Below, piece after piece: positions 37,560 through 60,240 of a DNA stretch of 64,000 bases (positions are counted from its first letter, which is position 1; each line of letters opens with the position of its first letter). Both the position numbers and the translations under genes were made by a program. Below the pieces are notes generated by a model. It was given only the letters and a program-made list of their open reading frames with translations, did not search any database and was not told the origin of the DNA. Source of the stretch: Phototrophicus methaneseepsis. GTDB lineage: Bacteria; Chloroflexota; Anaerolineae; Aggregatilineales; Phototrophicaceae. The stretch is from contig NZ_CP062983.1 of NCBI RefSeq assembly GCF_015500095.1, forward strand, positions 3,472,001 through 3,536,000, given 5' to 3'.

Positions 37560-37611
37560 TGATGGCCTCCATGAGGGGTGAACAAAAAGTTTAAGTCGAA
37601 GGAGATTCGAA

Positions 37612-38267: not shown

Positions 38268-38525
38268 ATGGAGGAAATCGTGAATAAGAAAACGGAATGG
38301 GTATTGGATACAGAACACCTTATGGCTGTCGCAAGACAGGCATATGGGGAACTGCCAGTACGTGAAATGGCCTTAAAGCTTGGCATCAGTGCAAGCACTG
38401 TTAGTCGCTTAAACAATGGGGCTGATTGTGACATTAAGTCACTTTGCCAAATATGTGTATCGCTTGAGGCTTCGCCCGCAGAATTCTTCACAAAACGGGT
38501 TTGGACATTGGAGGAGGAATCATGA
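38268..38525 (+). CDS. XRE-family DNA-binding protein
   Basis: About 85 residues with one helix-turn-helix: VREMALKLGISASTVSRLNNG, then a short C-terminal helix (LEASPAEFF). ATG at 38,268 is used; a GTG at 38,280, preceded by GGAGG, may be the real start. Its stop overlaps the parA start (ATGA), so it is the first gene of the partition operon and probably its repressor, or the phage Cro/CI-like regulator. Confidence 0.8.
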   Translation: MEEIVNKKTEWVLDTEHLMAVARQAYGELPVREMALKLGISASTVSRLNNGADCDIKSLCQICVSLEASPAEFFTKRVWTLEEES

Positions 38526-39337
38526 TTGTTATCACTTTATTGAATGAGAAGGGCGGGGTCGGTAAGACGACATGGGCTGACCATATTGCGCGCGCGCTTG
38601 CAGCACGAGGTAAGCGCGTCTTGTTGATTGACCTGGACCCGCAAGGGCACGCTACGCTGCGTACTGGTTTGAAATGGGACTCTGGGATTTATGACCTCCT
38701 GGTGCGAGAAGAAAGCTGGGAGTACGCGTTGGAGCCGATTCAGCCGGAGAAGTTCAGCATCCCCAGGGAACGGCTGAGCCGAGGCAAGTTGTGGGTATTG
38801 CCGTCCAACCGTGAGACGCGGTTTGTCGGGTTGGCAGGTTTGAACACCTTCATCCTGGCGAAGCGATTGAAGGAACTTGAGGGCCAGATTGACCTGGTTG
38901 TTATTGATTCTTCCCCTACGCCTTCGCCGCTGCATGCGCTGGCTTACATGGCAACGGATTACATCGTCTACCCGACGGAGTGCGCCTTCTTGAGTATGTC
39001 GGGGTTGGGGCAAAGCCTGCTCGCACGACAGCTCGCCGATAAGAACAAAGAAGATGAACTGAAACGGTCTGATTGGCCGATTGAAAAGATCAGTCATATC
39101 AGCGTGGCTGGCATCCTGCCCACGAAGTTCAAGGCGAACACGATTGAACATACGGAAAACCTGGACAAGCTCCATCAGCAGTTCGGTGACTTCGTGTGGC
39201 CGGAGATACGTAACCGCGTCATCTGGGACACAAGCAGCTCGTACTGCTTGCCTGTCTTCAATTTAGAACCACGTAGTAAGGCCGCTGCCGAAGTGTGGGA
39301 AGTGGCCGACAGAGTAGAGGAGGTGCTGAATGCCTAA
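38522..39337 (+). CDS. parA: ParA-family partition ATPase
   Basis: 271 residues. Deviant Walker A NEKGGVGKTTW at the N-terminus, LLIDLDPQGHAT, and VVIDSSPTPSPLHALA as Walker B. It lacks the N-terminal HTH of type-Ia plasmid ParA; the separate XRE protein just upstream may replace it. ParA proteins move DNA together with ParB. Presence in an integrating prophage suggests that an extrachromosomal state also exists. Confidence 0.9.
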   Translation: MIVITLLNEKGGVGKTTWADHIARALAARGKRVLLIDLDPQGHATLRTGLKWDSGIYDLLVREESWEYALEPIQPEKFSIPRERLSRGKLWVLPSNRETRFVGLAGLNTFILAKRLKELEGQIDLVVIDSSPTPSPLHALAYMATDYIVYPTECAFLSMSGLGQSLLARQLADKNKEDELKRSDWPIEKISHISVAGILPTKFKANTIEHTENLDKLHQQFGDFVWPEIRNRVIWDTSSSYCLPVFNLEPRSKAAAEVWEVADRVEEVLNA

Positions 39338-40859
39338 AGATCGCTACAACGGTGCACAGAAGGCTGACCCGTTTGACCAGAACCCAGACCCGGCCACGTT
39401 GGAAGATATGGACGAACGTATTTTTGGTGCGCGGGATATTGGGATTGATACAGGGCGGATTGTGGCGCGGCCTGTCTCGATTGATGAGATATGGCCGGAC
39501 CTGCGCCAGCCGCGGCGGGCGATCCCGGCTGAAATGCGCGGTGAGTTCGCTGGCAATCCGGCTCATGTGGCTAGCCTGCTCAAGCACTGGCACAAGGAAG
39601 TTGAGCGCGTGAGTGGTATTGAGATTGACCTCGGGCTGCAACTATCTGGGGTGGCGAATGAGCTGGATATAGACATCGAAGGCATGCCCGCGTGGGTTGA
39701 GGAATTTTTGACGCTGGTTGGCCTGGCGGCGAGCATCCGCACGAATGGCCTCATCAATCCTATTACGGTGAACCATCAGGTAGACCGCTACATCATCGAA
39801 ACGGGGGAGCGGCGCTGGCTGGCGCATCATCTGCTGCTGGCTGAGGTGGGGAATGAATTCGCAAAGATCCCGGCGCAGGAAGTGCTAGAGATCAACTTAT
39901 GGCGTCAGGCGGATGAGAACGGGAACCGCCGACCCCTGAACGCGATTGGCATGGCTCGCCAGATTGCGCTGTTGATTATGGATATGTACGAACACGAGGA
40001 CCAAACGGTGTTCCAGCCGTATGAGGCGCTGGTGCGACCTGGTGAATGTGATCGTGCGTACTATGCCCAGGTTTCCAACGGTTACACCTATAAGGTGAAG
40101 GATGGTTACCTGGACAAGATGCTTAAGGCAACTGGGCTGCCTTCTTCGCGGGTGTTGAGTGCTTACCGCGCTCTGCTGCGCGTTGATGACGATCTTTGGA
40201 TTAAGGCGGACCGCGATAGCTGGCCGGAGAAGTGGATACGAGACGAGCAGGATTCGCGCCGAAATCCTGTGAAACATGCCGAGAGTTTACCCCAGGGTAA
40301 ACACCCGGACGATGAGAGTTTACCGGACGGTAAACACCATGTGCCTGAAACAGGGGGCATTGAGCGCTTTTTGGGCGAGAAACCGGATATGCAGCGGCCA
40401 GCGCGCACGGATGGTATGGACCGTGAGCAGGTGGATGCTTATTACGATGAGGCGCATCTGCGGCGCAGTGGGCCGACGTGGGATGACCCGGAGCCTGAGC
40501 CACCGGTTGAGCTGGAATATGTGGACGATGACGATGATTACGATCCGGGTGAATTCGCGGGGCATATCCCTGCGGCGGATGCATCGCCGGTGATTGATTA
40601 CCACATGCGAGGTGTGATTGGTAAGTTTGCTGATTTGGCGTTGCAATACAACGATCGTGAACTGGCTCTGCGCCTGCAAAGCTGGCGGGATATGACGAAG
40701 AAGCAGGTCCAGGACCAGCTTGCTGTTGCTGAAGGTGGTGCTCAGTTGGCTCAGTTTATCCACGAACTGATGGTGGATTTGAATCAGTTCTTGATGGATA
40801 AGCCTGCACGCCAGATTGAGCAGCTCGCTAAAGAGCAGATCCGGCGCTTCATGGAGTAG
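39330..40859 (+). CDS. parB: ParB-like partition protein
   Basis: 509 residues; overlaps parA by 8 bases. The ParB/Srx core is at residues about 125-165: LAASIRTNGLINPITVNH and IETGERRWLAHHLLL. A helical DNA-binding region follows (MARQIALLIM, then LDKMLKATGLPSSRVLSAYRALL). The second half is acidic and linker-like (EPEPPVELEYVDDDDDYDP), with a helical C-terminus. Two palindromes within the gene (40,285-40,335) may be its own binding sites. Confidence 0.85.
   Translation: MPKDRYNGAQKADPFDQNPDPATLEDMDERIFGARDIGIDTGRIVARPVSIDEIWPDLRQPRRAIPAEMRGEFAGNPAHVASLLKHWHKEVERVSGIEIDLGLQLSGVANELDIDIEGMPAWVEEFLTLVGLAASIRTNGLINPITVNHQVDRYIIETGERRWLAHHLLLAEVGNEFAKIPAQEVLEINLWRQADENGNRRPLNAIGMARQIALLIMDMYEHEDQTVFQPYEALVRPGECDRAYYAQVSNGYTYKVKDGYLDKMLKATGLPSSRVLSAYRALLRVDDDLWIKADRDSWPEKWIRDEQDSRRNPVKHAESLPQGKHPDDESLPDGKHHVPETGGIERFLGEKPDMQRPARTDGMDREQVDAYYDEAHLRRSGPTWDDPEPEPPVELEYVDDDDDYDPGEFAGHIPAADASPVIDYHMRGVIGKFADLALQYNDRELALRLQSWRDMTKKQVQDQLAVAEGGAQLAQFIHELMVDLNQFLMDKPARQIEQLAKEQIRRFME
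40285..40335. repeat. paired palindromes within parB (parS or operator candidate)
   Basis: GTTTACCC-CA-GGGTAAAC (40,285-40,302) and GTTTACC-GGAC-GGTAAAC (40,318-40,335), in direct tandem with starts 33 bp apart, about three helical turns. The flanking GAGA also repeats in front of both. Two 18-bp palindromes with the same outer arms at helical phasing point to a protein-binding site rather than coding chance; ParB is the obvious candidate binder. Confidence 0.6.
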
Positions 40860-46926: not shown

Positions 46927-47352
46927 ATGGCGGTTCCAGGCAAGGCAGAGCTACGTAAAGCGATTCAGGCGACGGGCGGCGTGGTCTCCGATCTGGCAAA
47001 ACATTACAGTGCGTCACGGCAGACGATCTATAACTGGCTGGATGCGAAGGATCTGCGAGACGAGCTGAACGCGGCACGGCAAAACCTGATTGATGTAGCC
47101 CAGGATAATATCTATGGCGCGCTGATGGATGGTGACCTAGATATTAGTAAATTTGTTCTAGAACGTAAGGGGCGTCAGTTTGGTTGGACGAGGCAGATTG
47201 ACGTTGGCCAGGCGGTGCCACTCTCAAATGAACTCAAGAGTTTGCTGGATGAGATGGGCATTACGCCGGAGCAGATCGGCACGGAACTGCTGCCCGTTTT
47301 GAGAGAACTGAAGGCGCTGCAAGAGGCGGAAGCACATGGCGGCTCTGCCTGA
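46927..47352 (+). CDS. terminase small subunit-like DNA-binding protein
   Basis: 141 residues. N-terminal helix-turn-helix (VVSDLAKHYSASRQTIYNWL), central helical part (LIDVAQDNIYGALMDGDLD) and FVLERKGRQFGW, the usual small-terminase layout. It recognises the packaging site for TerL, whose gene overlaps its end by 17 bases. Confidence 0.82.
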   Translation: MAVPGKAELRKAIQATGGVVSDLAKHYSASRQTIYNWLDAKDLRDELNAARQNLIDVAQDNIYGALMDGDLDISKFVLERKGRQFGWTRQIDVGQAVPLSNELKSLLDEMGITPEQIGTELLPVLRELKALQEAEAHGGSA

Positions 47353-48811
47353 TAATAACCTTTCTGCGGCGGGTCCGGGTGTGGCGCAATTGCTGGCGAG
47401 GCGATTGGCGAGGCGATTGGTTGAGGTCCCGAAGTGGACGCTGGACGCGGAGCCTCAGAACCCTGATGACCCTGATGCGCCGATGTATGAGGTTGATGAA
47501 GCTGGACATCACGTCCGGCTTTTTTGGCATTGGGGCCAGATGCAGGCATGGGATAGCCTGAAGCGGATTATCTTTGTTTTGAGTGGCACACAGGGCGGCA
47601 AGACGTCGTTTCTGCCATGGTGGGTGTTCCGCGAGATTGTGCATACGGGCGGCGGCGATCACCTGGTGGTGACGGTGAGTTATGACCTTTTTAAGTTGAA
47701 GCTGTTGCCTGAGATCCGCGAGGTGTTTGAGCACGTGCTCGGTGTGGGACGGTATTGGGCTGGTGACCAGGTCCTTGAGATTAAAGACCCGCTAACAGGG
47801 CAGTTCCATGCACAACGAGCTGACGACAAGATGTGGGGCCGCATTATCTTGCGGTCTGCCGCGGCGAAGGGTGGGCTTGAATCCGCGACTGCCAAGAGCG
47901 CAGCGCTTGACGAGGCCGGGCAGGATGATTTTAAGGTGAGTGCATGGGAGGCGATTCAGCGGCGTGTTGCGCTGAACCAGGGGCGGACGCTGGTCACGAC
48001 GACACCGTATAACCTGGGATGGATGAAGCAACGCTTGCATGACCCGGTGCAGCGGGCTAACGGTAAGCATCCTGAGATTGATCTGATCAACTTCCCGTCA
48101 ACTGCGAATCCTAAGTTTAGTGAAACGGAGATGCGGCGTGCTCGTGAGACGATGCCGACGTGGAAGTACCTCATGTTTTATGAGGGCAAGTTCACACGTC
48201 CGGCAGGGTTGATCTACACAGATTTTGTCAACGAGCTGCGAGAGGCTGACGGGCACCTGGTTAAGCCGTTCAATTTACCCAAGGAGTGGCCGCGTATCGC
48301 AGGTGTGGACCCTGGCATCATCCATCAGGCGGAGGTGTGGGGCGCGGTGGATGTCGAGAACGAGACGCTTTATTTGTATCGGTCGATGATTCAGGCGCGT
48401 AAGCCGCAGGAGCAGCATGCACGGGATGCGATGAAGCGTGCGAAAGATGGCAGCGAACGGGTTATAAAGTGGGCAATTGGTGCGAAGTCTGAGATCTATC
48501 ATCGAGAGGACTGGAAGGCAGCGGGTGCGAAGAATGTGGTTGAGCCGGATACAAGCGATGTGGAAGAAGGTATCGACCGCGTGACGCTGCTGTTTAAGCA
48601 GTATCGGATTTATATCTTCGATGATCTTTATGAGCTCATTGAGGAGCTGCTGACATACAGTCGTGAGACAGATGAAGATGGTGAGCCGACCGATAAGATT
48701 CGTGATAAATCCACGTTCCATCGGCTGGATGCGCTGCGGTATTTGGTGGTGGCGTATGTGAAGAAGCAGCCGAATTGGAACTTAAAGGCGAAGGTGAAGA
48801 AATATGTCTAG
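47336..48811 (+). CDS. terL: terminase large subunit
   Basis: 491 residues. ATPase: SGTQGGKTSFLPWW as Walker A (residues about 80-93) and SAALDEAGQDDFKV as Walker B with catalytic Glu. C-terminal RNase-H-like nuclease: RIAGVDPGIIHQAEVWGAVD and later KSTFHRLDALRYLV with acidic residues. It translocates DNA into proheads through the portal encoded next; start and stop overlap both neighbours. Confidence 0.93.
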   Translation: MAALPDNNLSAAGPGVAQLLARRLARRLVEVPKWTLDAEPQNPDDPDAPMYEVDEAGHHVRLFWHWGQMQAWDSLKRIIFVLSGTQGGKTSFLPWWVFREIVHTGGGDHLVVTVSYDLFKLKLLPEIREVFEHVLGVGRYWAGDQVLEIKDPLTGQFHAQRADDKMWGRIILRSAAAKGGLESATAKSAALDEAGQDDFKVSAWEAIQRRVALNQGRTLVTTTPYNLGWMKQRLHDPVQRANGKHPEIDLINFPSTANPKFSETEMRRARETMPTWKYLMFYEGKFTRPAGLIYTDFVNELREADGHLVKPFNLPKEWPRIAGVDPGIIHQAEVWGAVDVENETLYLYRSMIQARKPQEQHARDAMKRAKDGSERVIKWAIGAKSEIYHREDWKAAGAKNVVEPDTSDVEEGIDRVTLLFKQYRIYIFDDLYELIEELLTYSRETDEDGEPTDKIRDKSTFHRLDALRYLVVAYVKKQPNWNLKAKVKKYV

Positions 48812-50435
48812 GGAAGTACTCGATCTGTTGCAAGCTGAGCTTGGTGATTTGGTGGGCGATTATTGGGCTGAGCGCACTGAGCAATATGGTGAGCGCGTGG
48901 CGCTGTATCGTGATTATATGGACGGCCAGCATCGGGCGAATATGACCAACGAGATGAAGAAGATGCTGCGTATTACGTCCCGCGCTGATGGACGTGATGA
49001 GGGCTTTAACGCGAATTACTGTGAGCTGGTGGTTGAATCCATGACGGACCGGCTGAAGGTGACGGGGGTCGAAGCGATTGCGCCGGATGCGCAGACAGAG
49101 CTTGTCGCGGGGGAGGATGCTGAGGCACCGGATAGCAATCAGACAGATCCGGGTAAGCCGCTGCAAGATTGGGCGGATGAGCGGCTTGATCATAATCGGT
49201 TTGATGCCTTGCAGGCGGATGTGCATGATGCTGTCATCCGTGATGGTGACAGCTTTGTGATGATCTCGTTTAACAATGAGACGCAGCGCTCCGAATGGAG
49301 CTATGAGCCGGCTTACGATGGTGATTATGGGATGCTTGTGGTTTATGACCGCATGGGCCGGAAGGTTGAAGCTGCTATTAAGATCTGGTGGGAGCGGGGG
49401 AAGCAGTACATCAATATTTATTACCCGGACCGCGTGAAAAAACTTGAAGCGGTGCGGCGGGACATCGAAGAAGACACGGCTGGGAGCTTTGAGCCTGTGC
49501 AGACGTTGATGCTTGAACCGCGTGATGTCTCCAATACGATGGTTGGCGTGCGGGTGACTGAAGGTGGTGATTTGCTGTGGACTGATCCGAGCAGCAGTGA
49601 CGGCCTGGGCGTGCCGGTGGTGCCGTTCCACAACAAGCGGATTGGGCGTGCGACTCATGGTAAGAGCGAGATGGAAGGGGCTATTAGCCTCAACGATGCG
49701 CTGAACCGTAATTTGGCGTCGATGGTGATGACTGCGGAGCTGACCGCGTTTAGCATCTTGCTAGAGAAGGGTCTCGAAATTCCCGCTGGTTTAACGCCGG
49801 GGATGACAGTGGGCATCACGTTTCAGTCGCTGCTTGAGGCGGGTGTGGCAGGTGAAGATCTGGCGGGCATCCTGGGGGCGATTGATGTGAAACGGATTCA
49901 GCCCGGTGACATCGTGCCGTTCATCGACCAGGCGAAGTATCTGATTGAGCAGATCGGGACTGTGAGCCGTACGCCGCTGCCTGGGTTCATGGGTGGTGAT
50001 AATGCGTCAGGTGAATCGCTCAAGCAGCGTGAAGCTGGCTTGATTGGCAAAATCAAGAAGTCACATGTCCGGCTGGGCAATAGCTGGGAGGATGTGCTGA
50101 CAATGGCGCACAAGATTGAATCCGCATTTGCGACGCAATCACCGCCGGATGTACTGCGGTTTAGCTGCCAGTGGGCAGATGCTGAGGTCCGTAATGATAG
50201 CCAGTTCATCAAGGACGTGAAGGAAGTTGCTGACATCGTCGGGCAGAAAGAGACGCTGATGCAGCTCGGGACTGTCTTCGGCTGGGATGAGGCGAAGGTG
50301 ACGCAGATCATGGATGAGAAGGCGGCGGAGAAGGCGCGTGTGGCTGGGGCTGTCGATCGTACGGTGCCGGATTACAGCGGTTTGAGCATCCCGGTACGTC
50401 AGCCTGACGCGTTGGCGATTGGTGCTGCTGTTTGA
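48804..50435 (+). CDS. portal protein (SPP1 gp6-like)
   Basis: 543 residues, overlapping terL by 8 bases. Seen: an N-terminal helical region (ERVALYRDYMDGQHRANM), NANYCELVVESMTDRLKV, VPVVPFHNKRIGRATHGKSE and SLNDALNRNLASMVMTAEL as in portal stem/wing regions, then the clip-side GFMGGDNASGESLKQREAGL. It forms the dodecameric DNA channel of the head. In related phages the minor head gene follows at once; here about 5.9 kb of other genes intervene. Confidence 0.9.
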   Translation: MSREVLDLLQAELGDLVGDYWAERTEQYGERVALYRDYMDGQHRANMTNEMKKMLRITSRADGRDEGFNANYCELVVESMTDRLKVTGVEAIAPDAQTELVAGEDAEAPDSNQTDPGKPLQDWADERLDHNRFDALQADVHDAVIRDGDSFVMISFNNETQRSEWSYEPAYDGDYGMLVVYDRMGRKVEAAIKIWWERGKQYINIYYPDRVKKLEAVRRDIEEDTAGSFEPVQTLMLEPRDVSNTMVGVRVTEGGDLLWTDPSSSDGLGVPVVPFHNKRIGRATHGKSEMEGAISLNDALNRNLASMVMTAELTAFSILLEKGLEIPAGLTPGMTVGITFQSLLEAGVAGEDLAGILGAIDVKRIQPGDIVPFIDQAKYLIEQIGTVSRTPLPGFMGGDNASGESLKQREAGLIGKIKKSHVRLGNSWEDVLTMAHKIESAFATQSPPDVLRFSCQWADAEVRNDSQFIKDVKEVADIVGQKETLMQLGTVFGWDEAKVTQIMDEKAAEKARVAGAVDRTVPDYSGLSIPVRQPDALAIGAAV

Positions 50436-50502
50436 CACAATCGCAAGCTGAAACCAAATAGAATGAGAGTAGGATCCCGGCTGGGACCGCTCTGAAATTG
50501 AA

Positions 50503-50532
50503 ACACGCCGAAAGCGGTCACTTCCGGCGTGT
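50503..50532 (+). terminator. hairpin after the portal gene
   Basis: ACACGCCG / CGGCGTGT stem extended by AAG/CTT with one mismatch, 6-base loop. No T-run follows, so it may protect mRNA or attenuate rather than terminate. It marks the left edge of the cargo block. Confidence 0.5.
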
Positions 50533-50631
50533 GGTGCCTAAATCCTGGTTCGAGAAAGTAGGCTGTTTGTATTGTAGCACAGGGTGAGGGTGCCCGATAA
50601 AGAATGTTCTGTGGTAGAGGGAGAGAATCCG

Positions 50632-50850
50632 ATGAGCAATTTTGATAGGTTCAAAAAAACAGCAGGTATACACGGCATGATTGCAAGCGATATAGCACAC
50701 TTCGGCGGCGTACTCCGATGCAAGGAGTGTGGTAAAGAGCAGCCACTGACCGAACAGCAGATTAGTCATTACCTGGGACACGGCTGGCCTGAGTGCCATG
50801 GCGAAACCATGCTATGGGTTACGCAGCGCCAATTAGATGCAGGGGAGTAG
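50632..50850 (+). CDS. small zinc-ribbon-like protein in the cargo block
   Basis: 72 residues from the ATG with GAGGGAGA upstream. LRCKECGKEQPL and a later HGWPECHGE give Cys-x2-Cys and His/Cys ligands for a metal. No family recognised. First gene of the cargo between portal and minor head protein. Confidence 0.65.
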   Translation: MSNFDRFKKTAGIHGMIASDIAHFGGVLRCKECGKEQPLTEQQISHYLGHGWPECHGETMLWVTQRQLDAGE

Positions 50851-50855
50851 GACAG

Positions 50856-51155
50856 ATGAGTGAAGGACAACGTGTGAAATTAAGCGACGAAGAATCTCAT
50901 GTGCTTATCAACATGTATCACTGCAACACAGCAGAGAAGGTCGTTTACTCCGACTGGTGCGATCAGAATCGACGTCAAATGATCCGGCTAACGGGGCTAG
51001 GCTATGTTGAGCATTTGCCTTGGCAAGGTGGGCAGCATTTCAACGAATACCAGCTTACTCCTATTGGCTTACTTGAAGCTCAAGAGTGCATTCGTGAGCG
51101 CATCAAGCAACTACAAAATCAGATCAAAGTGTTCGAAGAAATGATAGCGGATTAG
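50856..51155 (+). CDS. winged-helix-like protein in the cargo block
   Basis: 99 residues, 5 bases after the previous gene. SDEESHVLINMYHC, RRQMIRLTGLGYVEHLPW and YQLTPIGLLEAQECI fit a winged helix with a C-terminal helix. Possible local regulator of the cargo; inference. Confidence 0.6.
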   Translation: MSEGQRVKLSDEESHVLINMYHCNTAEKVVYSDWCDQNRRQMIRLTGLGYVEHLPWQGGQHFNEYQLTPIGLLEAQECIRERIKQLQNQIKVFEEMIAD

Positions 51156-51165
51156 GGAGTATGTC

Positions 51166-51477
51166 ATGAATCCTAACACAGCATTCCAGCCTGGCGACAT
51201 CGTGAGGCTGACCGCGCCTTGTACTGTCGAGATTGATGGCGACTGCGAATGCTGCGGTCGCCCAAAGTCGTTTGACATTGAGTTAGCCGAAGGTCGCATA
51301 TTCGAAGTCGCGCATGATGACGGCAGTAGATATGTTAGCGTGCACTTTGTGAGTAACCAGTATAGGCGCCAGCGCATTTTACTGGATGCCTGGTTTGTCG
51401 AGATGGTGCGCCGACCGGAGAACTTCCCGCGCTGCTATTCGGTCGATTTATTTACGTTTGCTGGCGTGACGGTTTAG
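51166..51477 (+). CDS. small Cys-rich protein in the cargo block
   Basis: 103 residues. FQPGDIVRLTAPCTVEIDG then DCECCGRPKSFDIELAEG: a knuckle of three cysteines within an SH3-like beta-rich fold. Unknown function. Confidence 0.65.
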   Translation: MNPNTAFQPGDIVRLTAPCTVEIDGDCECCGRPKSFDIELAEGRIFEVAHDDGSRYVSVHFVSNQYRRQRILLDAWFVEMVRRPENFPRCYSVDLFTFAGVTV

Positions 51478-51525
51478 CATCTTAGCCCGATAACCGTCTT
51501 TATGTGGACAAGGGAGTATTTAGAA

Positions 51526-51807
51526 ATGACACCAGATTGTAAATATTGCACAGCACCAGCACAGCTAGGTAAGACGCTGTGCGAGGACTGCGAAGAAATC
51601 CTACGGGTACAGCAAGAGGATGCAGACGACGATATGTACTATGAGTCTGATTACGATGATTTTGATCCGTATATTGAGCACGGCGAAACCGTATGGTTAG
51701 ATGGCTTCTTTTACGATGTGGTTGTCACTGTTGACGATAGTATGCGCGTGACAATTGAGCATAGTCCTGTTTACTACTCGTGCTGGGATGGCAAGCTGCC
51801 ATTCTGA
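51526..51807 (+). CDS. small acidic zinc-ribbon protein in the cargo block
   Basis: 93 residues from the ATG with GGGAG upstream. CKYCTAPAQLGKTLCEDC is a clear Cys4 knuckle at the N-terminus; a very acidic stretch (DADDDMYYESDYDDFDPY) follows, then a beta-rich end. Acidic DNA-mimic character is possible. Unknown function. Confidence 0.65.
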   Translation: MTPDCKYCTAPAQLGKTLCEDCEEILRVQQEDADDDMYYESDYDDFDPYIEHGETVWLDGFFYDVVVTVDDSMRVTIEHSPVYYSCWDGKLPF

Positions 51808-51850
51808 GCCATTACCCGACAAGTTACTTTATAAGCTAGAGGAGAAAATC

Positions 51851-52066
51851 ATGCCAAAGGATACAGAAACAACGCGGATCCCCGTTGAAAATTGGACAAA
51901 TAGCCAGCTTCACGACACGCTTTATGCTGCGTCCGAAGTCCAGGGGCTATTCCCTGACTGCGAATTTACAAAACAACTAGAGTCTTTTTTAGATATGTTA
52001 TGGGATGAAGTTCATCATCGTGAAGATGAGGAGGATAAAGAAGCTGAGATATTGGAAACTCAGTAG
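51851..52066 (+). CDS. small acidic helical protein in the cargo block
   Basis: 71 residues with GAGG upstream. Helical, ending in a highly acidic tail (HHREDEEDKEAEILE). Unknown function. Confidence 0.6.
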   Translation: MPKDTETTRIPVENWTNSQLHDTLYAASEVQGLFPDCEFTKQLESFLDMLWDEVHHREDEEDKEAEILETQ

Positions 52067-52173
52067 CTTAACCTCGTAACGGATTTTATGCAACGTCTCC
52101 AGCGGTACAGTTGCGCAAGAACAGAAACAGTATATATTTATATATACTGGTTTTTCAATAGGTGAGCGAAGAA

Positions 52174-52419
52174 ATGAATTTTTGGGAAGGTGTTCTTTCA
52201 GGCACTATCGCCACTATTGTTGGGGGAATAATCTTACACTTCTTAATTCAAAGCTTAAACTATTCTCCTCCCAAAGGGCCAGAGTTAAATGATTCATCAA
52301 GCGGGTGTGCATACCTACTTTTATTAGTATTTTTTACTATAGTATTTTATGTTCTTATCCAGGGTATCAATGAGGGACCCATTATTGGGATTTCACTGCC
52401 AATATATGAAGGGAATTAG
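52174..52419 (+). CDS. small two-TM protein
   Basis: About 81 residues; two hydrophobic helices (GVLSGTIATIVGGIILHFLI and CAYLLLLVFFTIVFYVLIQG) joined by a polar Ser/Pro loop. AT-richer than the virion genes. It lies about 250 bases upstream of the TM/STAND pair and may belong to the same accessory unit. No family recognised. Confidence 0.6.
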   Translation: MNFWEGVLSGTIATIVGGIILHFLIQSLNYSPPKGPELNDSSSGCAYLLLLVFFTIVFYVLIQGINEGPIIGISLPIYEGN

Positions 52420-52671
52420 TGGGATATTAATCTGTTTTATCCGGCTGAAATTGCTCTTTAGATAGACTGAGGGCACGCCTTATCGTAGAAATGTAATTAA
52501 CCTCTGATTTGCAACTAAAACAACCAAACCAATAAGTAACACTAAAATCGTAGATCCACAGTTGCCGACTTAAAAGTAGGTTTGAACCAGGGCGACATAT
52601 GTGGTTCCAATCTCTAACGGCAGTTCTGATTCACAATAGGCGTATAATTCATTTCATACAAGAAGGGAGAA

Positions 52672-52944
52672 ATGATGAATGACTTAACACTAATTGCAAT
52701 TTTGGTGATTGTGTTATTGGTCGCACTATTGATTGTCAGTCGTGGATTCCGCAGTTTCGTCTTGAGAACCTTTGGCATAGAGGCTGAAGTTCATGGTGTA
52801 AAGACACAATCTGAGATAAATGTGCGTCATCATTCCAGAGCTGAAAAAATAAAAAATACTGGTGGCTCTCTGAGAGCAAATATTACCGATAATTCTATTC
52901 TTGAAGATTATGAACAGGGTAGCGATAACGCCGATACGGGATAA
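52672..52944 (+). CDS. small single-TM protein paired with the STAND NTPase
   Basis: 90 residues with AAGGGAG upstream. TM helix at residues about 6-25 (LIAILVIVLLVALLIVSRGF), then a polar cytoplasmic part with HSRAEKIKNTGGSLRANITD, an Asn/Gly-rich stretch, and an acidic end. It ends 11 bases before the NTPase start, so the two are translated from one message. It could be the membrane-acting effector of the pair, since the NTPase itself has no fused effector (inference). AT-rich. Confidence 0.68.
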   Translation: MMNDLTLIAILVIVLLVALLIVSRGFRSFVLRTFGIEAEVHGVKTQSEINVRHHSRAEKIKNTGGSLRANITDNSILEDYEQGSDNADTG

Positions 52945-52955
52945 GGCTACATCTC

Positions 52956-55784
52956 ATGATCACGATCTTTGGACGTGAAGCCGAAAAAAGACGACTTGCT
53001 CAAATGCTGTCTCGCTATTCCGGAGGTGTCCTTGGTTATTATGGCATGTCTGGACTTGGAAAAAGCACAGTTCTTGATCTATTTGAGCAACGGATTTCAG
53101 AAATGAAGTTTACGCCTTATGTGGCTCGACTGGACTTTGCTGATGTCAGCCTACATGATGTGCTTGCTGCTTTTGTCTATCTCTTGGTTCAACTCGAATC
53201 GACTGGTGCTACCCGAAAACGTAAGAGAGGATTATTTAGAAGATATTCTGACAGCCCGTTGAAAAATGTCGCTCAAGCTCTGGCACCAACACTAAATATC
53301 AAGCAGATTCTCAAGATAAATGTCGATAATCATTCAGTTGCACAACATATTTACAATATAGCAAATGTACAACCGGGAATTAATCAGGCTCAACTGAATG
53401 AGGCTATGGGCAAATTCAAGGTTGGTATCACGAAATTACCTTGCACGCCACCATTTCCTGGCAAAATACAGGGCAACTTCATCCGTCCCTTGGTTGTTGT
53501 GCTTGCTGATACGCTGGAGCAAGCTCCGGATAGTGTTTTAAGTTGGCTCAAACAGCTTGCATCACCGATGTTTGAAGAATATTTGCTGCTGATCGCGGCT
53601 GGGCAGGAAAAAATCGATGGTCTGCTCGAAACGTCGATGGATCGAGTAGAAGATGATGCAATTCGCGACATTCTACGAAATCGTTTTCGAATAGTGGAGG
53701 GTGAGAAGTTAGATGCCGTCTGTCGAATTGCAAGAGGTAACCCACGATGCGCAGTGCTTGCGGGTGAATTACTCACACAGGATGAATCAATCAAGCTGGA
53801 TGCCTTGTTGCCCTCAGATATCAATGATCATTTAGTAGCAGACTATTTAGTAAAACATATTCTGAACCGGCTGCCCAATTCCAGTACCGAAAAACATTTA
53901 TTGACTTATGGTTGTGTACTGCGTCACTGGGAAACAACCGAACAGCTACGCACTGTTTTATTCGCGGTACCCCAGGTGCGCAACATAATGGGGCAGGGTG
54001 CAGATATTCGTGCTGCTCTGAATCGTCTGCGTGAACACTCCTTTCTTGATTCTGGTCACCCTCATCCCACATTGCGTGATCTGCTCCTACACGATCTGAA
54101 ACAGGACGAACATTCGATTTTTCTCGCGCTTCATCACGCGGCTTCAGAATATTATAAGAATCATCATAAGTATGCAGATGCAATTTACCATCTGATAGCT
54201 ATTGAAGAATGGCAGGCAGTATTCAACCTGTGGAACGCGCTCATCAAATTAGAGAATGCACCTGCGTTGGAGCAATGTCTAAAGGAGCTTTCGGCCAGAA
54301 GCATACCATCTGAGTTTGCCTTCATAGGACAGGTGGCTCTAATCGAGAGTGGTTTGATACTGCAGCACGACGCACTATTGATGCCATTGCTATCCTTGGT
54401 GCAGAGTGAATTATCCGATGATAGGAAACACATCGTCAACACACTGACCCAGCGAGCCTTAGAGATGGATTTTATCCCTGATGAATTACGCTTCCAATTG
54501 GTGGTGATTACAACGACAGAGTTGGAAGAACAAGCACAAGCGTTGATCGAGCTTGCTGATGTGAAGCTATGGCAGGAACGTTATACGGAGTCGGAGTCAG
54601 ACTTTAGGCAGGCATATGAGTTGTATCAGGAATTGGGTGATCGCCTTGGGCAGGCAAATGCTTTGCGAAGCCTTGGTGAGGTAAAGGGGTTGCAAAATCG
54701 CTATGTGGAGTCGGAGTCGAACTATAGTCAGGCATATGATTTGCATCGGGAACTAGGTGATCGCCTTGGACAGGCACATGCGTTGAGTGGGCTTGGTGAG
54801 ATGAAGCGGCTGCGGGGTCGCTATACGGAGTCGGAGTCGGACCTCAGCCGGGCATATGAGTTGCATCAGGAGTTAGGTGATCGTTATGGACAGGCACATG
54901 CTTTGCGAGGGCTTGGTGAGGTAAAGCAGTCGCAGGGTCGCTATGTGGAGTCGGAGTCGGACCTCAGCCGGGCATATGAATTGTATCAGGAACTGGGTGA
55001 TCGTCATGGACAGGCAGATGCTTTGCGAGGGCTTGGTGAGGTGAAGCGGCTGCGGGGTCGCTATACGGAGTCGGAGTCGGACCTCAGCCGGGCATATGAA
55101 TTGTATCAGGAACTGGGTGATCGTCATGGACAGGCACATGCTTTGCGAGGACTTGGTGAGGTGAAGCTGCTTCCGGGTCGCTATGTGGAGTCGGAGTCGG
55201 ACTACAGTCAGGCATATGATTTGTATCGGGAATTGGGTGATCGTCATGGACAGGCACATGCTTTGCGAGGGCTTGGTGAGGTAAAGCAGTCGCAGGGTCG
55301 CTATGTGGAGTCGGAGTCGGACTACAGTCAGGCATATGAATTGTATCGGGAATTGGGTGATCGTCATGGACAGGCACATGCCTTGCGAGGGCTTGGTGAG
55401 GTGAAGCGGCTGCAAAATCACTATGTGGAGTCGGAGTCAGACTATAGCCAATCATATAAATTGTATCGGGAACGGGGTCATCGTCATGGACAGGCAAATG
55501 CGTTGATCGGGCTTGGTGAGGTAAAGCAGTCGCAGGGTCGCTATGTGGAGTCGGAGTCGGACTATAGCCAAGCATATGAATTGTATCGGGAATTGGACAA
55601 TTGCTTGGGACAAGCTCTATCGTGTTGGTTACTAGGCCTCCTTGCAGCAGATCGGGAAGATATCGCAAGTCTAGAAAAAAGGATAAAGAATCTGGAGACT
55701 CTTGCGCTGCAGGTCAATACAGATTTGAGAGATGAAGTGGTTTATATGCTGCGAGACCTGCAAAGTCGTCATAGTGCGCTTTGA
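52956..55784 (+). CDS. STAND-type NTPase with nine near-identical TPR units
   Basis: 942 residues. The NTPase starts almost at residue 1: FGREAEKRRL, P-loop GMSGLGKST at 30-38, a hydrophobic Walker B ending VVVLADTLEQ near 178-190, RFRIVEGEKLDAVCRIARGNPR (the G-x-P-type motif of STAND/AP-ATPases), a winged-helix-like part near 310-360 and helical repeats. Residues about 529-888 are nine 40-residue TPRs, each Y-V/T-E-S-E-S-D, G-D-R-x-G-Q-A, L-G-E-V-K. STAND NTPases with TPR sensors include the Avs antiviral proteins and AfsR-like regulators; there is no HTH output here. Cargo position in a prophage favours defence. Codon use is AT-richer than the neighbours. Confidence 0.85.
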   Translation: MITIFGREAEKRRLAQMLSRYSGGVLGYYGMSGLGKSTVLDLFEQRISEMKFTPYVARLDFADVSLHDVLAAFVYLLVQLESTGATRKRKRGLFRRYSDSPLKNVAQALAPTLNIKQILKINVDNHSVAQHIYNIANVQPGINQAQLNEAMGKFKVGITKLPCTPPFPGKIQGNFIRPLVVVLADTLEQAPDSVLSWLKQLASPMFEEYLLLIAAGQEKIDGLLETSMDRVEDDAIRDILRNRFRIVEGEKLDAVCRIARGNPRCAVLAGELLTQDESIKLDALLPSDINDHLVADYLVKHILNRLPNSSTEKHLLTYGCVLRHWETTEQLRTVLFAVPQVRNIMGQGADIRAALNRLREHSFLDSGHPHPTLRDLLLHDLKQDEHSIFLALHHAASEYYKNHHKYADAIYHLIAIEEWQAVFNLWNALIKLENAPALEQCLKELSARSIPSEFAFIGQVALIESGLILQHDALLMPLLSLVQSELSDDRKHIVNTLTQRALEMDFIPDELRFQLVVITTTELEEQAQALIELADVKLWQERYTESESDFRQAYELYQELGDRLGQANALRSLGEVKGLQNRYVESESNYSQAYDLHRELGDRLGQAHALSGLGEMKRLRGRYTESESDLSRAYELHQELGDRYGQAHALRGLGEVKQSQGRYVESESDLSRAYELYQELGDRHGQADALRGLGEVKRLRGRYTESESDLSRAYELYQELGDRHGQAHALRGLGEVKLLPGRYVESESDYSQAYDLYRELGDRHGQAHALRGLGEVKQSQGRYVESESDYSQAYELYRELGDRHGQAHALRGLGEVKRLQNHYVESESDYSQSYKLYRERGHRHGQANALIGLGEVKQSQGRYVESESDYSQAYELYRELDNCLGQALSCWLLGLLAADREDIASLEKRIKNLETLALQVNTDLRDEVVYMLRDLQSRHSAL
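54541..55620 (+). repeat. nine tandem 120-bp repeats encoding TPR units
   Basis: Units start at 54,541 and every 120 bp to 55,501 with no length change; the core TCGGAGTCGGACT/C recurs in each. Some units share identical half-units (the first 60 bases at 54,901 and 55,261; most of 54,781 and 55,021), which points to recent duplication and recombination among units. The first and last are the most diverged, as expected for expanding arrays. Confidence 0.93.
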
Positions 55785-55900
55785 TTGAAAATATGCTTTC
55801 TAGATAAGCGTTTACAATCTCACCAGAAAATAAATCCCTATTAATTGGAAAACTTTCTTGACAAGTTTTCTGAGAAGCTCTCCGCGAGCGAAACTGTCAA

Positions 55901-55930
55901 AAAATGAGCCCCGGAGACGGGGCTTTTTTG
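55901..55930 (+). terminator. terminator after the STAND gene (copy 1 of a repeated terminator)
   Basis: AGCCCCG-GAGA-CGGGGCT followed by TTTTT. The same ~30 bases occur again at 56,251. The stretch from 55,785 to here holds no gene. Confidence 0.88.
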
Positions 55931-55933
55931 TTG

Positions 55934-56137
55934 TTATTCGTTTTCTGTGGGTATTTCCCTCAAGTTATTTAAGGCGCTGAAAACCTTTATAAATTCGTTT
56001 GTGTAATAGTTCCGGCGCTCCTCACCATGGAGTCTATCTTCAAGTGCTCCTGGAGCAGCCTCATTTACAATCCTCCATGCAATCGCAGCAAGTGCCACTT
56101 GTGTCTCGTTTGTATTTGGTAACCAATTATCAGACAT
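55934..56137 (-). CDS. small minus-strand protein between repeated terminators
   Basis: 67 residues from the Met-Ser-Asp start, which has GGAGG five bases upstream; a frame 15 codons longer (to 56,182) lacks a ribosome site. Helical (QVALAAIAWRIVNEAAPG, YTNEFIKVFSALNNL). The only minus-strand gene in the virion half of the prophage and flanked by two copies of one terminator: a typical moron. Function unknown. Confidence 0.6.
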   Translation of the reverse strand: MSDNWLPNTNETQVALAAIAWRIVNEAAPGALEDRLHGEERRNYYTNEFIKVFSALNNLREIPTENE

Positions 56138-56250
56138 TTGTTCCTCCATAGCGTTGATGATGAACTCATTAAACTCCCTCATTAGTAAAAGCGCAAACTA
56201 ATCTGTATAAAAGTGCTGCTGGTTACACAACCTCCACAGAAGTGAAACCT

Positions 56251-56281
56251 AAAATGAGGCCCGGAGACGGGGCTTTTTGTT
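56251..56281 (+). terminator. terminator before the minor head genes (copy 2)
   Basis: AGGCCCG-GAGA-CGGGGCT with one mismatched pair, then TTTTT. Direct repeat of the element at 55,901, 350 bp apart. The 82 bases to the next gene hold its start region only. Confidence 0.75.
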
Positions 56282-56363
56282 GTGGGGCTGCTGTGCGTTA
56301 GGGGCTGGTTTGTCGCAGATGATGAGGTAGCGCAAAAGTGATCATTTATGCGAGGAATTTAAG

Positions 56364-56798
56364 ATGGCTGATGCAAGTGTAACGGCTGCAAATGTGGCAC
56401 CAGTGACGACTGGCGCGAACCGGACGCAGACAGCGACGGTGACCGCTGGTGCGACGGTGACGGCTGGGCAAACTGTAGCTAAGCGCAGCGATGGGCGCTG
56501 GGATCCGGCGGATTGTGACCTCAGCGCGGAAGCTGCCGGGTCGATTGACCGCGGTGTGGCACTCAACGGTGCCAGCGACGGCCAACCGCTGGAAATCGTG
56601 CGAGGTGGTGAGTATGACCCTGGCTTTACGGCAACACAGGGTGTGACGTACGTCTTCAGCGGGACGGCGGGCGGTGTGGCACCGAGCGCTGACCTGGCTA
56701 CAAACGATTGGGTTGTCATCCTGGGTGTGGGCAACGCTGATGGCAATATTCTGCTGCCGCCTGGTGGTATCTTCTACAGCGGTTCACAGGTGCAGTGA
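56364..56798 (+). CDS. putative virion/decoration protein
   Basis: 144 residues, rich in Ala, Thr, Gly and Val with beta-strand pattern (TVTAGATVTAGQTVAKRSDG, GVALNGASDGQPLEIVRGG, VILGVGNADGN). Style is that of DUF2190/capsid-cement proteins. It overlaps the next gene (TGATG). Assignment is by composition and context only. Confidence 0.6.
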   Translation: MADASVTAANVAPVTTGANRTQTATVTAGATVTAGQTVAKRSDGRWDPADCDLSAEAAGSIDRGVALNGASDGQPLEIVRGGEYDPGFTATQGVTYVFSGTAGGVAPSADLATNDWVVILGVGNADGNILLPPGGIFYSGSQVQ

Positions 56799-57097
56799 TG
56801 GACGTGACGGCAGCAGTATTACGCCGGATTGAGAACTCGCTGCATAGCTTGATGGTTGAGCATATGCACGATACGGCTGTCGCTGACCAGCTCGCTTATG
56901 TGATTGAGCAGGATTGCAATACGATCATCGTGAGGCTGCCGGATGCCGATTCATCCCCGGCGCAGATCTCTACAGAGACAAGCGCTCCTATCGAAGATGA
57001 GCGGCCTGATGATGCTGAACCAGGTGAGCAGATCAACCGCGGTACGCTTAACGGGAGTACGCTCACCGGTGCTGTGCTGCCTCCGGTTGACGAATGA
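56798..57097 (+). CDS. small phage protein of unknown function
   Basis: 99 residues. Helical N-terminus (VLRRIENSLHSLMVEHMHD), then an acidic Pro/Ser/Thr-rich C-terminus. It overlaps the previous gene (TGATG) and the next (ATGA). Possibly a head-assembly accessory protein. Confidence 0.6.
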   Translation: MDVTAAVLRRIENSLHSLMVEHMHDTAVADQLAYVIEQDCNTIIVRLPDADSSPAQISTETSAPIEDERPDDAEPGEQINRGTLNGSTLTGAVLPPVDE

Positions 57098-58143
57098 CGA
57101 CCCCTACACCTCCGACGCCAATTAGTGTGAATGACCTCGTTCGGGATTTGCTTGACCGGGGTTATTCGCGTGCAACGATGGCAACCTTGAATGCGGTGAG
57201 TGCGGATACTGGCAGCGGGTTGATTCAGCAGCGGTTACGAGAGCTTGAGGCGGAGGCGGCCCGGCTGGATGCGGCTGGTGAGCGGTTAGACCCGAACAAC
57301 CCGGTCTTGCGTGCGTTGACGGCGGATCTGGATACGATGCTACGGCAGAGCGCGATGCGCGTTGATGATATGGCGGAGACGGTGCAGGCGCTGGGTGTGG
57401 ATGCATCTGCGCCACTGACCCGGCAGCTCGCACTGGCCGGGTTCCCCCAGGAGGAGCTGGCGCGGTTGGGCATCATCTGGAATCAGCCGGATGTGGAGGC
57501 AGTGAATCGGCTTGTGCAGTATGTGGACAGCGCGGGATGGGCGGAAGAGATTGCTGAATTCGGCCCGAATATCCTGAGCCGGGTTGAGCAGATTGCTGTG
57601 AATGGGTTTGCGCAGGGGTGGGGGCCGATACGCGTCGCTCGTGAGCTGTCTAATGTTGTCGAGACGATGCCGAGGTATCAGGCGAACAATCTGATGCGGA
57701 CGCTGCAATTGCAGTCGCTGCGCAGCGGGACGGCGATTCATCAGGCGGCGAATGCGGATATTTTGGAATATCAGGTTCGTATGGCGACGCTGGATAGCCG
57801 GACGTGCCTGACGTGTGTGGCACTGCATGGGACACGATTGGAGATTGGCGAGCGGGTGCTCGACCATCATCAAGGGCGGTGCTTTTCTGTGACGCAGGTT
57901 CGAGGGATGCCCCGGCGAGAGATTGAGAGTGGGCAGGATTGGTGGGACCGCCAGCCGGAAACGGTACGGCTCCAGATGGCAGGGGCGGCGAATTTCAATG
58001 CGTTACAGGCTGGTGCGGTGACGTTAAATGATTTCGTACAGCGGTATGACGATCGCGTGTTTGGTGAGATGGTGCGTGAATCGAGCTTGAAGGGCATCCT
58101 GGGTGATGCTGCTGAGCAGTATTATGCGCGGAATCGGCGCTGA
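57094..58143 (+). CDS. minor head / head morphogenesis protein (SPP1 gp7, Mu F-like)
   Basis: 349 residues. The diagnostic C-terminal motif is seen: LDSRTCLTCVALHGTRLEIG followed by DHHQGRCFSVTQVRG, the Cys/His cluster of the Mu F-like domain. N-terminal part helical (LIQQRLRELEAEAARLDAAG). In SPP1-like phages this protein binds the portal and follows its gene; here the cargo lies between them. Confidence 0.85.
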   Translation: MTTPTPPTPISVNDLVRDLLDRGYSRATMATLNAVSADTGSGLIQQRLRELEAEAARLDAAGERLDPNNPVLRALTADLDTMLRQSAMRVDDMAETVQALGVDASAPLTRQLALAGFPQEELARLGIIWNQPDVEAVNRLVQYVDSAGWAEEIAEFGPNILSRVEQIAVNGFAQGWGPIRVARELSNVVETMPRYQANNLMRTLQLQSLRSGTAIHQAANADILEYQVRMATLDSRTCLTCVALHGTRLEIGERVLDHHQGRCFSVTQVRGMPRREIESGQDWWDRQPETVRLQMAGAANFNALQAGAVTLNDFVQRYDDRVFGEMVRESSLKGILGDAAEQYYARNRR

Positions 58144-58214
58144 TTGAGTTGCCGCAGAATGTGCGTTATCGGGCAATGCTTACGACAAAGTAACAATAAG
58201 GAAAGGTTGGCGAG

Positions 58215-58919
58215 ATGCTGACGACTCAACGACATATTGTTCGCACTGCGCGACGCTTGAATGCTGAAGGCGCAATCAGCTTGTTTAAGCGGCGGTCGTG
58301 GTACGCGGACGAGAATCAAGGCAATGACGGGAGCGATTCCCCAGATGGTCAGTCTAACGGTGGCGATGGCAATAATACCGATGAGATTGACCTTTCTGCT
58401 GTTCCGGAGAGTGTGCGGCGACATTACGAACGTCGTGAGGCTCAGTTGAAGCAAGAAGCTGCTCAGCGGCGACTTGAGAGTAAGGAACTGAGTGAACGGC
58501 TGCAAAAGCTGGAAGCCGCACAATCCCAACAGCTCGAAGAACAGGGTAATTTTAGGGCGCTTGCTGATAAGCACGCCCAGACTGTCGCCGATCTGAGGCC
58601 GTACAAGGATATGGCTGAGCGGTATGAGGCTCGGTTCCGTGATAGCAACGAGAAGCGCATTGCGGCAATTCCTGAACATATGCGCCCATTGGTGCCGACG
58701 GAATATTCGCCGGAGAAGTTATCCGATTGGTTGGATAACAATGTGGCCCGGCTGACGACCCCGAAAGCCCCGGACCTGGACAGCGGTGCAGGTGGCGGCA
58801 GTGGCAAACAATCTAAGATCGAAGTGACTGAGGCGGATCGCTTGGCGGCTGAAGCTGCGACACGGAGTGGTTATCCCATGACCGCAGAGGACATTGCTAA
58901 GCGGCGCGGACAAGGATAG
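58215..58919 (+). CDS. putative capsid scaffolding protein
   Basis: 234 residues. Acidic Gly/Asn/Asp-rich N-terminal part, a long central coiled coil (RREAQLKQEAAQRRLESKEL, LSERLQKLEAAQSQQLEEQG) and a basic C-terminus: the usual scaffold layout (DUF4355-like), and it lies just before decoration and capsid genes. Confidence 0.75.
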   Translation: MLTTQRHIVRTARRLNAEGAISLFKRRSWYADENQGNDGSDSPDGQSNGGDGNNTDEIDLSAVPESVRRHYERREAQLKQEAAQRRLESKELSERLQKLEAAQSQQLEEQGNFRALADKHAQTVADLRPYKDMAERYEARFRDSNEKRIAAIPEHMRPLVPTEYSPEKLSDWLDNNVARLTTPKAPDLDSGAGGGSGKQSKIEVTEADRLAAEAATRSGYPMTAEDIAKRRGQG

Positions 58920-58924
58920 TAATT

Positions 58925-59326
58925 ATGGCAGGTTTTAGATATGCGGGCAGTCTGGTTGGGACTGGCGAACCTGTTATTCGTAAGTACGTGCTAGCTGATG
59001 GCGAAGTCATCAGTAAAAACCAGATACTAAACCTCGAAAGTGGTGAGGCGGATGCTGGCGCGACGAATGACAGTGCTTTTATCGGTGCGGCGGTTGAAAG
59101 TGTGGATAACACGGACGATGGCTTGTCCATCCATGTGATCTGCAATCCCGACGCGATTTATGCGGTTGACGATGCGAATGTGCGCGTCGCTGGTGCGACG
59201 TTAGACCTCGCTAGCGGTGGCATGGGTGTAGCTGCTTCATCCAATGCCGATTTTGTTGTTGTGGCTGATAGTGCTGCTGACGAGCCGACCCTGGTCGTGT
59301 TCAATAGCAACCACTATCTCGGTTAA
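58925..59326 (+). CDS. putative head decoration protein
   Basis: 133 residues, beta-rich: VIRKYVLADGEVISKNQILN, FIGAAVESVDNTDDGLSI, NVRVAGATLDLASGGMGV. Size, composition and position between scaffold and major capsid fit a cement protein. Confidence 0.65.
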   Translation: MAGFRYAGSLVGTGEPVIRKYVLADGEVISKNQILNLESGEADAGATNDSAFIGAAVESVDNTDDGLSIHVICNPDAIYAVDDANVRVAGATLDLASGGMGVAASSNADFVVVADSAADEPTLVVFNSNHYLG

Positions 59327-59337
59327 GGGAGTGAGTG

Positions 59338-60240
59338 ATGGTTCAACATAGTGGCAATTTCTCTGAACTTGTCGATTTCGACCCCGTGCTGACTGAGATC
59401 TTCTTCCAGAAGTATGCTCAGATTCCGCAGATTCTTCTCCCAACGATTTACGCCCAGCGTGAAAGCCGCAAGGCGAAAGAAACCGATATGCGTATTGGGT
59501 CTTTCCCGGATCCACAGCCCTGGGATGGTCACGTGTTTTACGATGATGCTGAGCGTGATTCGAAGATCGAATACGTTCATGGGCATCTGACGCTTGGCTT
59601 CAAGGTGGACATCGAGATGCGCGAAGATATGCAATATGATGGTATCTTCGACCGCGCTGCGAACCTGGGCCAGAGCTTTGCTCGTAAGATCGTCAAGGAT
59701 GAGTCGAGCCCGTTCAACAACGCTTTCAGCTCTTCTTATCCTGGGTATGACAGCAAAGCCCTGTGTGCTACAGATCATCCGCGTAGCGAGACAGATGCTA
59801 CTGCTGTCAGTAATTACCTTGGGGCGAAGGCGCTGACCAGTGCGAACCTGGAAGATGCCATCATTCAGCTTGAGAGCCTGGGTGACGACCGCGGTGAGGA
59901 AACGAACGCGATGGCGAATGTCCTCCTGGTTGGCCGCCAGCAGCGGAAGACGGCGCTGGAACTGACCAGCAGCGAGCTGACGCCGGAAAGCGCTAACAAT
60001 GCGATCAATGTACACAATGATCTGCAAACGTTGGTGCATCCTATGATCAGCGGCAAGAAGTGGTTTGTCATGGACCGCGAGATGGCGCGCATGGTGCTGA
60101 AATGGTACTGGCGCGTGCGCACATCTTTTGGTGTTGATGATGATAAATCCAACACGCTGATGCGGTCGTACTTCGGTCGCAATCGTTATAGCTACGGTTG
60201 GTCGGACTTCCGCTTCGTCGTCGGCTCAAATCCGGCTTAG
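59338..60240 (+). CDS. major capsid protein (Mu gpT-like)
   Basis: 300 residues. FSELVDFDPVLTEIFFQKY, GHLTLGFKVDIEMREDMQYD, LGQSFARKIVKD, KALCATDHP and VLLVGRQQRKTALEL follow the Mu-type gpT/HK97-fold head subunit. GGGAG precedes the ATG at 59,338. Context (scaffold and decoration upstream, connectors downstream) supports it. Confidence 0.78.
   Translation: MVQHSGNFSELVDFDPVLTEIFFQKYAQIPQILLPTIYAQRESRKAKETDMRIGSFPDPQPWDGHVFYDDAERDSKIEYVHGHLTLGFKVDIEMREDMQYDGIFDRAANLGQSFARKIVKDESSPFNNAFSSSYPGYDSKALCATDHPRSETDATAVSNYLGAKALTSANLEDAIIQLESLGDDRGEETNAMANVLLVGRQQRKTALELTSSELTPESANNAINVHNDLQTLVHPMISGKKWFVMDREMARMVLKWYWRVRTSFGVDDDKSNTLMRSYFGRNRYSYGWSDFRFVVGSNPA

Follow-up and report, generated by a model that had tools for sequence, protein, structure and literature searches.

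A prophage-borne STAND ATPase with recently homogenised TPR units and a small membrane-protein neighbour in Phototrophicus methaneseepsis, a possible NLR-like conflict module

In Phototrophicus methaneseepsis ZRK33, a deep-sea bacterium of the Chloroflexota, a gene encoding a predicted STAND ATPase with C-terminal TPRs sits in the head operon of a prophage. The window, meaning the whole stretch of 64,000 nucleotides analysed here (NZ_CP062983.1, positions 3,472,001 to 3,536,000), contains the following features, with coordinates counted from its first base.

36624 to 37628, minus strand: tyrosine-type phage integrase of the same prophage (phrog_1, E 1.9e-40)
46927 to 50435, plus strand: phage packaging genes, with the small terminase at 46927, the large terminase at 47336 and the portal at 48804 (PHROG)
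50436 to 56363, no strand: inserted block between the portal and the head gene at 56364 (empty site in a related phage contig, G+C)
52672 to 52944, plus strand: one-pass membrane protein of 90 aa, proposed effector or membrane anchor (ORF, neighbourhood in homologues)
52956 to 55784, plus strand: predicted STAND ATPase-TPR protein of 942 aa (ORF, Pfam, model and Foldseek matches to MalT and Apaf-1)
54540 to 55619, plus strand: nine 120-bp in-frame units, 40-aa repeats of TPR_12 type (TRF, unit alignment, TPR_12 E 1.2e-59)
55901 to 56278, no strand: two terminator-like repeats (55901-55928 and 56251-56278) flanking a 67-aa ORF
56364 to 60240, plus strand: phage head genes at 56364, 57094 (MuF-type), 58215 (scaffold), 58925 and 59335 (major capsid) (PHROG, synteny)

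The gene order of the prophage is integrase, ParA/ParB, replication protein, terminase, portal, the STAND and membrane-protein genes, MuF, scaffold and capsid. The ParA- and ParB-like partition genes (38501-40859) adjoin the integrase, a hint of a plasmid-like stage. In the IMG/VR contig L146, whose capsid protein is 53% identical to that of the prophage, 92 bp separate the portal from a homologue of the gene at 56364, after which comes MuF, and in another related phage contig, L164, the portal and MuF matches are about 35 bp apart. Since the site is closed up in both contigs, the ~5.9 kb between portal and head gene (50436-56363) is considered inserted cargo, lying between two conserved phage genes as in known prophage hotspots; between 52 and 53 kb the G+C drops to 0.387. 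A homologue of gene 56364 was present in L146 and was not found in L164 or L166, so that the empty site rests on few relatives, and as the portal relatives are mostly on contigs of 3-15 kb, few related phages are available to compare the cargo at the same site. At the end of the block, the terminator-like repeats are identical at 27 of 28 bases and enclose the 67-aa ORF on the minus strand (55934-56137), possibly being a scar or a second small cargo gene.

The 942-aa protein is composed of a P-loop ATPase beginning at residue 4, a winged helix, a helical linker, the TPR array, which makes up its C-terminal part (Pfam TPR_12, E 1.2e-59), and a short C-terminal tail. The Pfam AAA_16 match at the N-terminus is weak, with 26.6 bits under a cut-off of 32.6. 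Nevertheless, the features that define the STAND class are all found: a P-loop with Walker A and B, a GxP motif before the winged helix and C-terminal sensor repeats. The Walker A (GYYGMSGLGKST), Walker B (RPLVVVLADT) and GNP (ARGNPRC) motifs are kept in three sequences, the window protein and two homologues. AlphaFold2 with the single full-length sequence gave an unusable model (pLDDT 41), and a model of residues 1-520 from a three-sequence input was taken instead, being confident across most of 231-440. Foldseek returned MalT (8bob) and Apaf-1 (1z6t and 3sfz) as the three best PDB matches of this model, all with probability 1.00; the TM-scores are low (0.3), as large parts of the ATPase core are poorly modelled. 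The conserved motifs, the MalT/Apaf-1 matches and TPR_12 together argue that the protein is a STAND ATPase of the MalT/Apaf-1 class, with winged helix and TPR sensor. An NLR-like receptor architecture had been proposed by an earlier sequence-only reading of this DNA, and TPR_12, the model of residues 1-520 and the Foldseek matches all agree with it. No effector domain was found on the protein among Pfam or PADLOC families, Pfam detected no DNA-binding domain, and none of the PADLOC Avs profiles matched. Between Walker A and B, residues ~112-155 (53300-53420) form an insertion rich in beta strands and Asn, which differs across all three homologues and is similar in style to the tail of the membrane protein; as a guess only, it could be the contact point with that protein.

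The 90-aa ORF ends 11 bp upstream of the STAND gene and, as read from its sequence, encodes a protein with a single N-terminal hydrophobic helix, with no Pfam family above cut-off and no PHROG family. Two full-length homologues of the STAND protein were found, one in the MAG contig JAIUNI010000012.1 (G090), whose ATPase half is 49% identical to that of the window, and another in contig JALHOR010000162.1 (G006), 34% identical. In both, a homologous small gene lies directly upstream of the STAND gene, with overlapping reading frames in G090, and the encoded proteins share 28-35% identity with the 90-aa protein. The STAND gene and the small gene form a two-gene module, and the pair is found again in these two Chloroflexota genomes. 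The homologue set thus comprises three sequences, two of them from metagenome-assembled genomes, and no further full-length homologues were found in 154 genomes of the order, in 396 of the class or in two genome-contig scans. Peptide patterns of the whole protein had no matches in genome contigs or viral contigs, tblastn against INPHARED phages found nothing, plasmids gave TPR matches in unrelated proteins only, and the DNA motif of the array had no match in viral contigs. From the conserved neighbourhood in these three genomes, we infer that the membrane protein may be the effector. The surroundings of the G090 homologue are ordinary chromosome, with no recognisable phage or defence genes adjoining.

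These data also bear on the possibility that the protein is a regulatory STAND of MalT type, whose TPRs would bind a small molecule or a host protein and which would regulate genes of the host or the prophage, or membrane physiology, rather than act in immunity. MalT is indeed the best structural match, STAND-TPR proteins are very common in the host's family (TPR matches in 59 of 61 relatives), and the chromosomal G090 orthologue is compatible with such a role. We nevertheless consider it unlikely, since the window protein has no detected DNA-binding domain, its neighbour is a membrane protein instead of a regulon, the gene is inserted in a phage head operon, and the other two homogenised arrays of this genome, described below, belong to TIR fusion proteins, one of which is encoded in a cluster of restriction and STAND genes.

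In the array, TRF detected a single repeat (54551-55596, period 120, 8.7 copies, 85% matches, 0% indels, score 1350) and the alignment gave nine in-frame units, so the exact 120-bp periodicity over nine units noticed earlier is real. The "perfect register" is equally real, although it would be expected in any coding TPR array, and the start previously given to the array is one base off the codon frame. One of the 40-aa units is ALRGLGEVKQSQGRYVESESDYSQAYELYRELGDRHGQAH, and the outer units (1 and 9) are the most divergent. The identical 60-bp halves at 54901 and 55261 are exact, the match extending to 77 bp (54886-54962 = 55246-55322), while the block said to be shared by 54781 and 55021 reduces to a 58-bp exact core (54802-54859 = 55042-55099) within first halves that are 93% identical. 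Exact blocks of 70, 56 and 54 bp join other unit pairs. A GENECONV-like permutation of polymorphic sites was significant for all nine units (global P = 0/2000) and when restricted to units 2-8 (global P = 0.018), but the longest exact run taken alone reached only P = 0.039 by codon-column permutation. The mosaicism is genuine and of moderate strength. The variation consists of mosaics of whole blocks, a pattern that does not suggest a diversity-generating retroelement.

The number of units depends on a Nanopore-only assembly, obtained with R9.4 reads and Canu, for which short-read polishing is not mentioned in the accessible part of the source (PMC8941918). About 1 kb of near-identical units could have had their number or order collapsed, expanded or consensus-blurred in such an assembly. 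This is very improbable as an explanation of the array, since the units differ at 57 of 120 sites, the frame stays open throughout without a single indel, and typical Nanopore reads are much longer than the array; the number of units might be an artefact, but not the units themselves.

The units of the window array are on average 73% identical to each other and 33% identical to those of the G090 orthologue, where no register stands out (0.31-0.38), against 49% identity between the ATPase halves of the same proteins. In the unit tree, the nine window units form a single clade with support of 0.985. No DNA-level repeat was found in the G090 array, and one is present in G006 (84%). These differences indicate that the homogenisation is recent and lineage-specific, in line with the recent unit duplication and gene conversion that the sequence-only reading had proposed. 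Fungal NLRs with high internal conservation are defined by repeats that share 85% identity or more across 100 aa or more (PMC4986451). At lag 40, the window array is 88% identical to itself across 100 aa and so falls within this definition, as it does for concerted evolution.

Change focused on the concave face had been named earlier as a sign of recognition, and it was examined at groove positions set in advance from general TPR knowledge (canonical 2, 5, 9, 12 and 13). There, pN is 0.359, against 0.122 elsewhere (P = 0.003; P = 0.049 for units 2-8). This supports recognition only in part. Most of the other TPR arrays tested have the same enrichment, which therefore speaks for the way TPRs bind in general and not for an arms race, and pN/pS of the window array is 0.50 overall, so there is no clear diversifying selection. 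At unit positions 9-13, pN/pS rises to 0.97-1.14 in this array and 1.15-1.28 in a second one.

To place the array in its genomic background, 42 TPR_12 loci were sampled in the ZRK33 genome and compared by 240-bp self-identity, for which non-repeat DNA averages 0.39. Three loci reach 0.92-0.94 and the other 39 do not exceed 0.52, and each of the three is a STAND gene with a phage terminase in its vicinity. One is the window gene, and the other two are TIR-NB-ARC-TPR genes. That at 4.83 Mb (L049:7283-10705; G000:C1:4829282-4832704) encodes 1140 aa, has about ten 120-bp units (91% match) and belongs to another prophage, where an Erf-like gene lies on one side of it and the terminase genes on the other; that at 1.17 Mb is flanked by an Erf gene and a terminase. 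With random labels, three of three homogenised loci being STAND genes near terminases would occur at ~1e-4, for an observation made post hoc in a single genome. The region upstream of the 1.17-Mb terminase (L087:414-15881; G000:C1:1172413-1187880) is a defence-like cluster with TIR-NB-ARC-TPR, nSTAND1-HEAT, SNF2-PLD helicase and type IIG restriction enzyme genes, the nSTAND1-HEAT gene having 93-bp units up to 96% identical.

We also looked for a tie between homogenised TPR-STAND arrays and prophages across the wider family, which is unsupported by the arrays or the terminase neighbourhoods of relatives. No terminase match was found near the relatives' homogenised TPR arrays, and no homogenised TPR-STAND array in 20 terminase neighbourhoods of relatives, the repeats in two of these (L172 and L176) not being TPR-STAND. 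The first of them (G090:C14:401000-420900) contains dense tandem repeats of 107-143 bp, apparently non-coding, around a terminase-like match.

Neutral repeat turnover would see in the near-identical units nothing but young duplications in a recently acquired gene, devoid of adaptive meaning whatever the role of the protein. The pN/pS of 0.50 suits it, as do the groove enrichment shared with other TPR arrays, the homogenised arrays that relatives have with no phage genes nearby, and the common tendency of repeat proteins to amplify internally. It explains less well why 39 of the 42 TPR_12 loci of the genome are not homogenised and the three that are belong to STAND genes near terminases, or why pN/pS is about 1 at positions 9-13 in two independent arrays, and we regard it as doubtful.

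The reading we prefer, with about an even chance of being right, is that the two genes make up an NLR-like conflict module, an infection sensor with a membrane effector acting in trans, which a temperate phage carries as cargo. The conserved ATPase motifs, the MalT/Apaf-1 matches and TPR_12 point to it, and so do conservation of the membrane gene in three genomes, the insertion in the prophage head operon at a site where relatives lack it, the concerted evolution and 88% internal identity of the units, the TIR-NB-ARC-TPR genes near terminases as the only other homogenised arrays among the 42 loci, and the antiviral TIR-STAND-TPR genes of P2/P4 prophage hotspots (PMC9122126). Against it stand the missing fused effector, the pN/pS of 0.50, the chromosomal location of the closest homologue, the lack of the pattern around the terminases of 20 relatives and the AAA_16 score below cut-off. 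Under this reading, the TPR superhelix would bind a protein that is produced when a competing phage infects the cell, exchange of ADP for ATP would lead the ATPase to oligomerise, and the oligomer would gather or open the membrane protein so that the cell stops or dies, sparing the host population of the prophage. Action through the membrane protein is proposed because the STAND protein itself carries no effector domain, and for the same reason an action of Avs type is an analogy. Recombination among the near-identical 120-bp units (slippage, unequal exchange or conversion) would alter their number and reshuffle groove residues, renewing the sensor as in fungal NLRs with high internal conservation. 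The earlier interpretation as a whole was thus right on recent duplication and conversion and on the NLR-like architecture, and had overlooked the prophage cargo and the membrane partner. A broader proposal, that the temperate phages of Phototrophicus keep NLR-like receptors of a fast-diversifying class next to their packaging genes, in which the window family has no fused effector and would work through a dedicated small membrane protein, and in which recombination of homogenised TPRs retunes the recognition of rival phages, seems improbable to us at present.

If the module is what we propose, NLR-like receptors that renew their recognition surface through recombination of repeats can be part of the cargo of temperate phages, and the fungal NLRs with high internal conservation would have a counterpart in bacteria. 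Such a module would also be a sign of a STAND system whose membrane effector is a separate protein, and the number of repeats and the groove codons across strains would offer a countable test of whether immune sensors of bacteria diversify in this manner.

Among known systems, Avs (AVAST) proteins share with the window protein a STAND ATPase and a C-terminal TPR sensor, and their sensors bind terminase or portal; the window protein differs in having no N-terminal effector and no PADLOC Avs profile match. Since it lacks a fused effector, it falls outside Avs and TIR-STAND by their definitions. MalT has a comparable ATPase/winged-helix half and TPR sensor, whereas the window protein has no C-terminal DNA-binding domain and is found in a prophage with a membrane partner. 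RexA/RexB of lambda is a prophage-encoded two-gene exclusion system, with a cytoplasmic sensor and a membrane protein; the likeness is an analogy, with no homology claimed, RexA not being a STAND ATPase. Fungal NLRs (het-d/het-e; Dyrka et al. 2014, PMC4986451; PMC12222747) share NLR architecture, concerted evolution, repeats above 85% identity over 100 aa and variable codons at the binding face, but they are fungal and chromosomal, and repeat-number polymorphism and positive selection have been demonstrated in them. In bacteria, TIR-STAND-TPR genes in P2/P4 prophage hotspots, of which that of P2 adjoins the portal gene, are described as antiviral systems (Rousset et al. 2022, PMC9122126), and with the fungal NLRs they are the nearest precedents. 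Judging from the accessible part of that paper, where homogenised arrays such as that of the window gene are not mentioned, they too combine a STAND ATPase with C-terminal TPRs as prophage cargo, but their effector is a fused TIR, SIR2 or nuclease domain, where the window gene has none and is accompanied by a small membrane protein.
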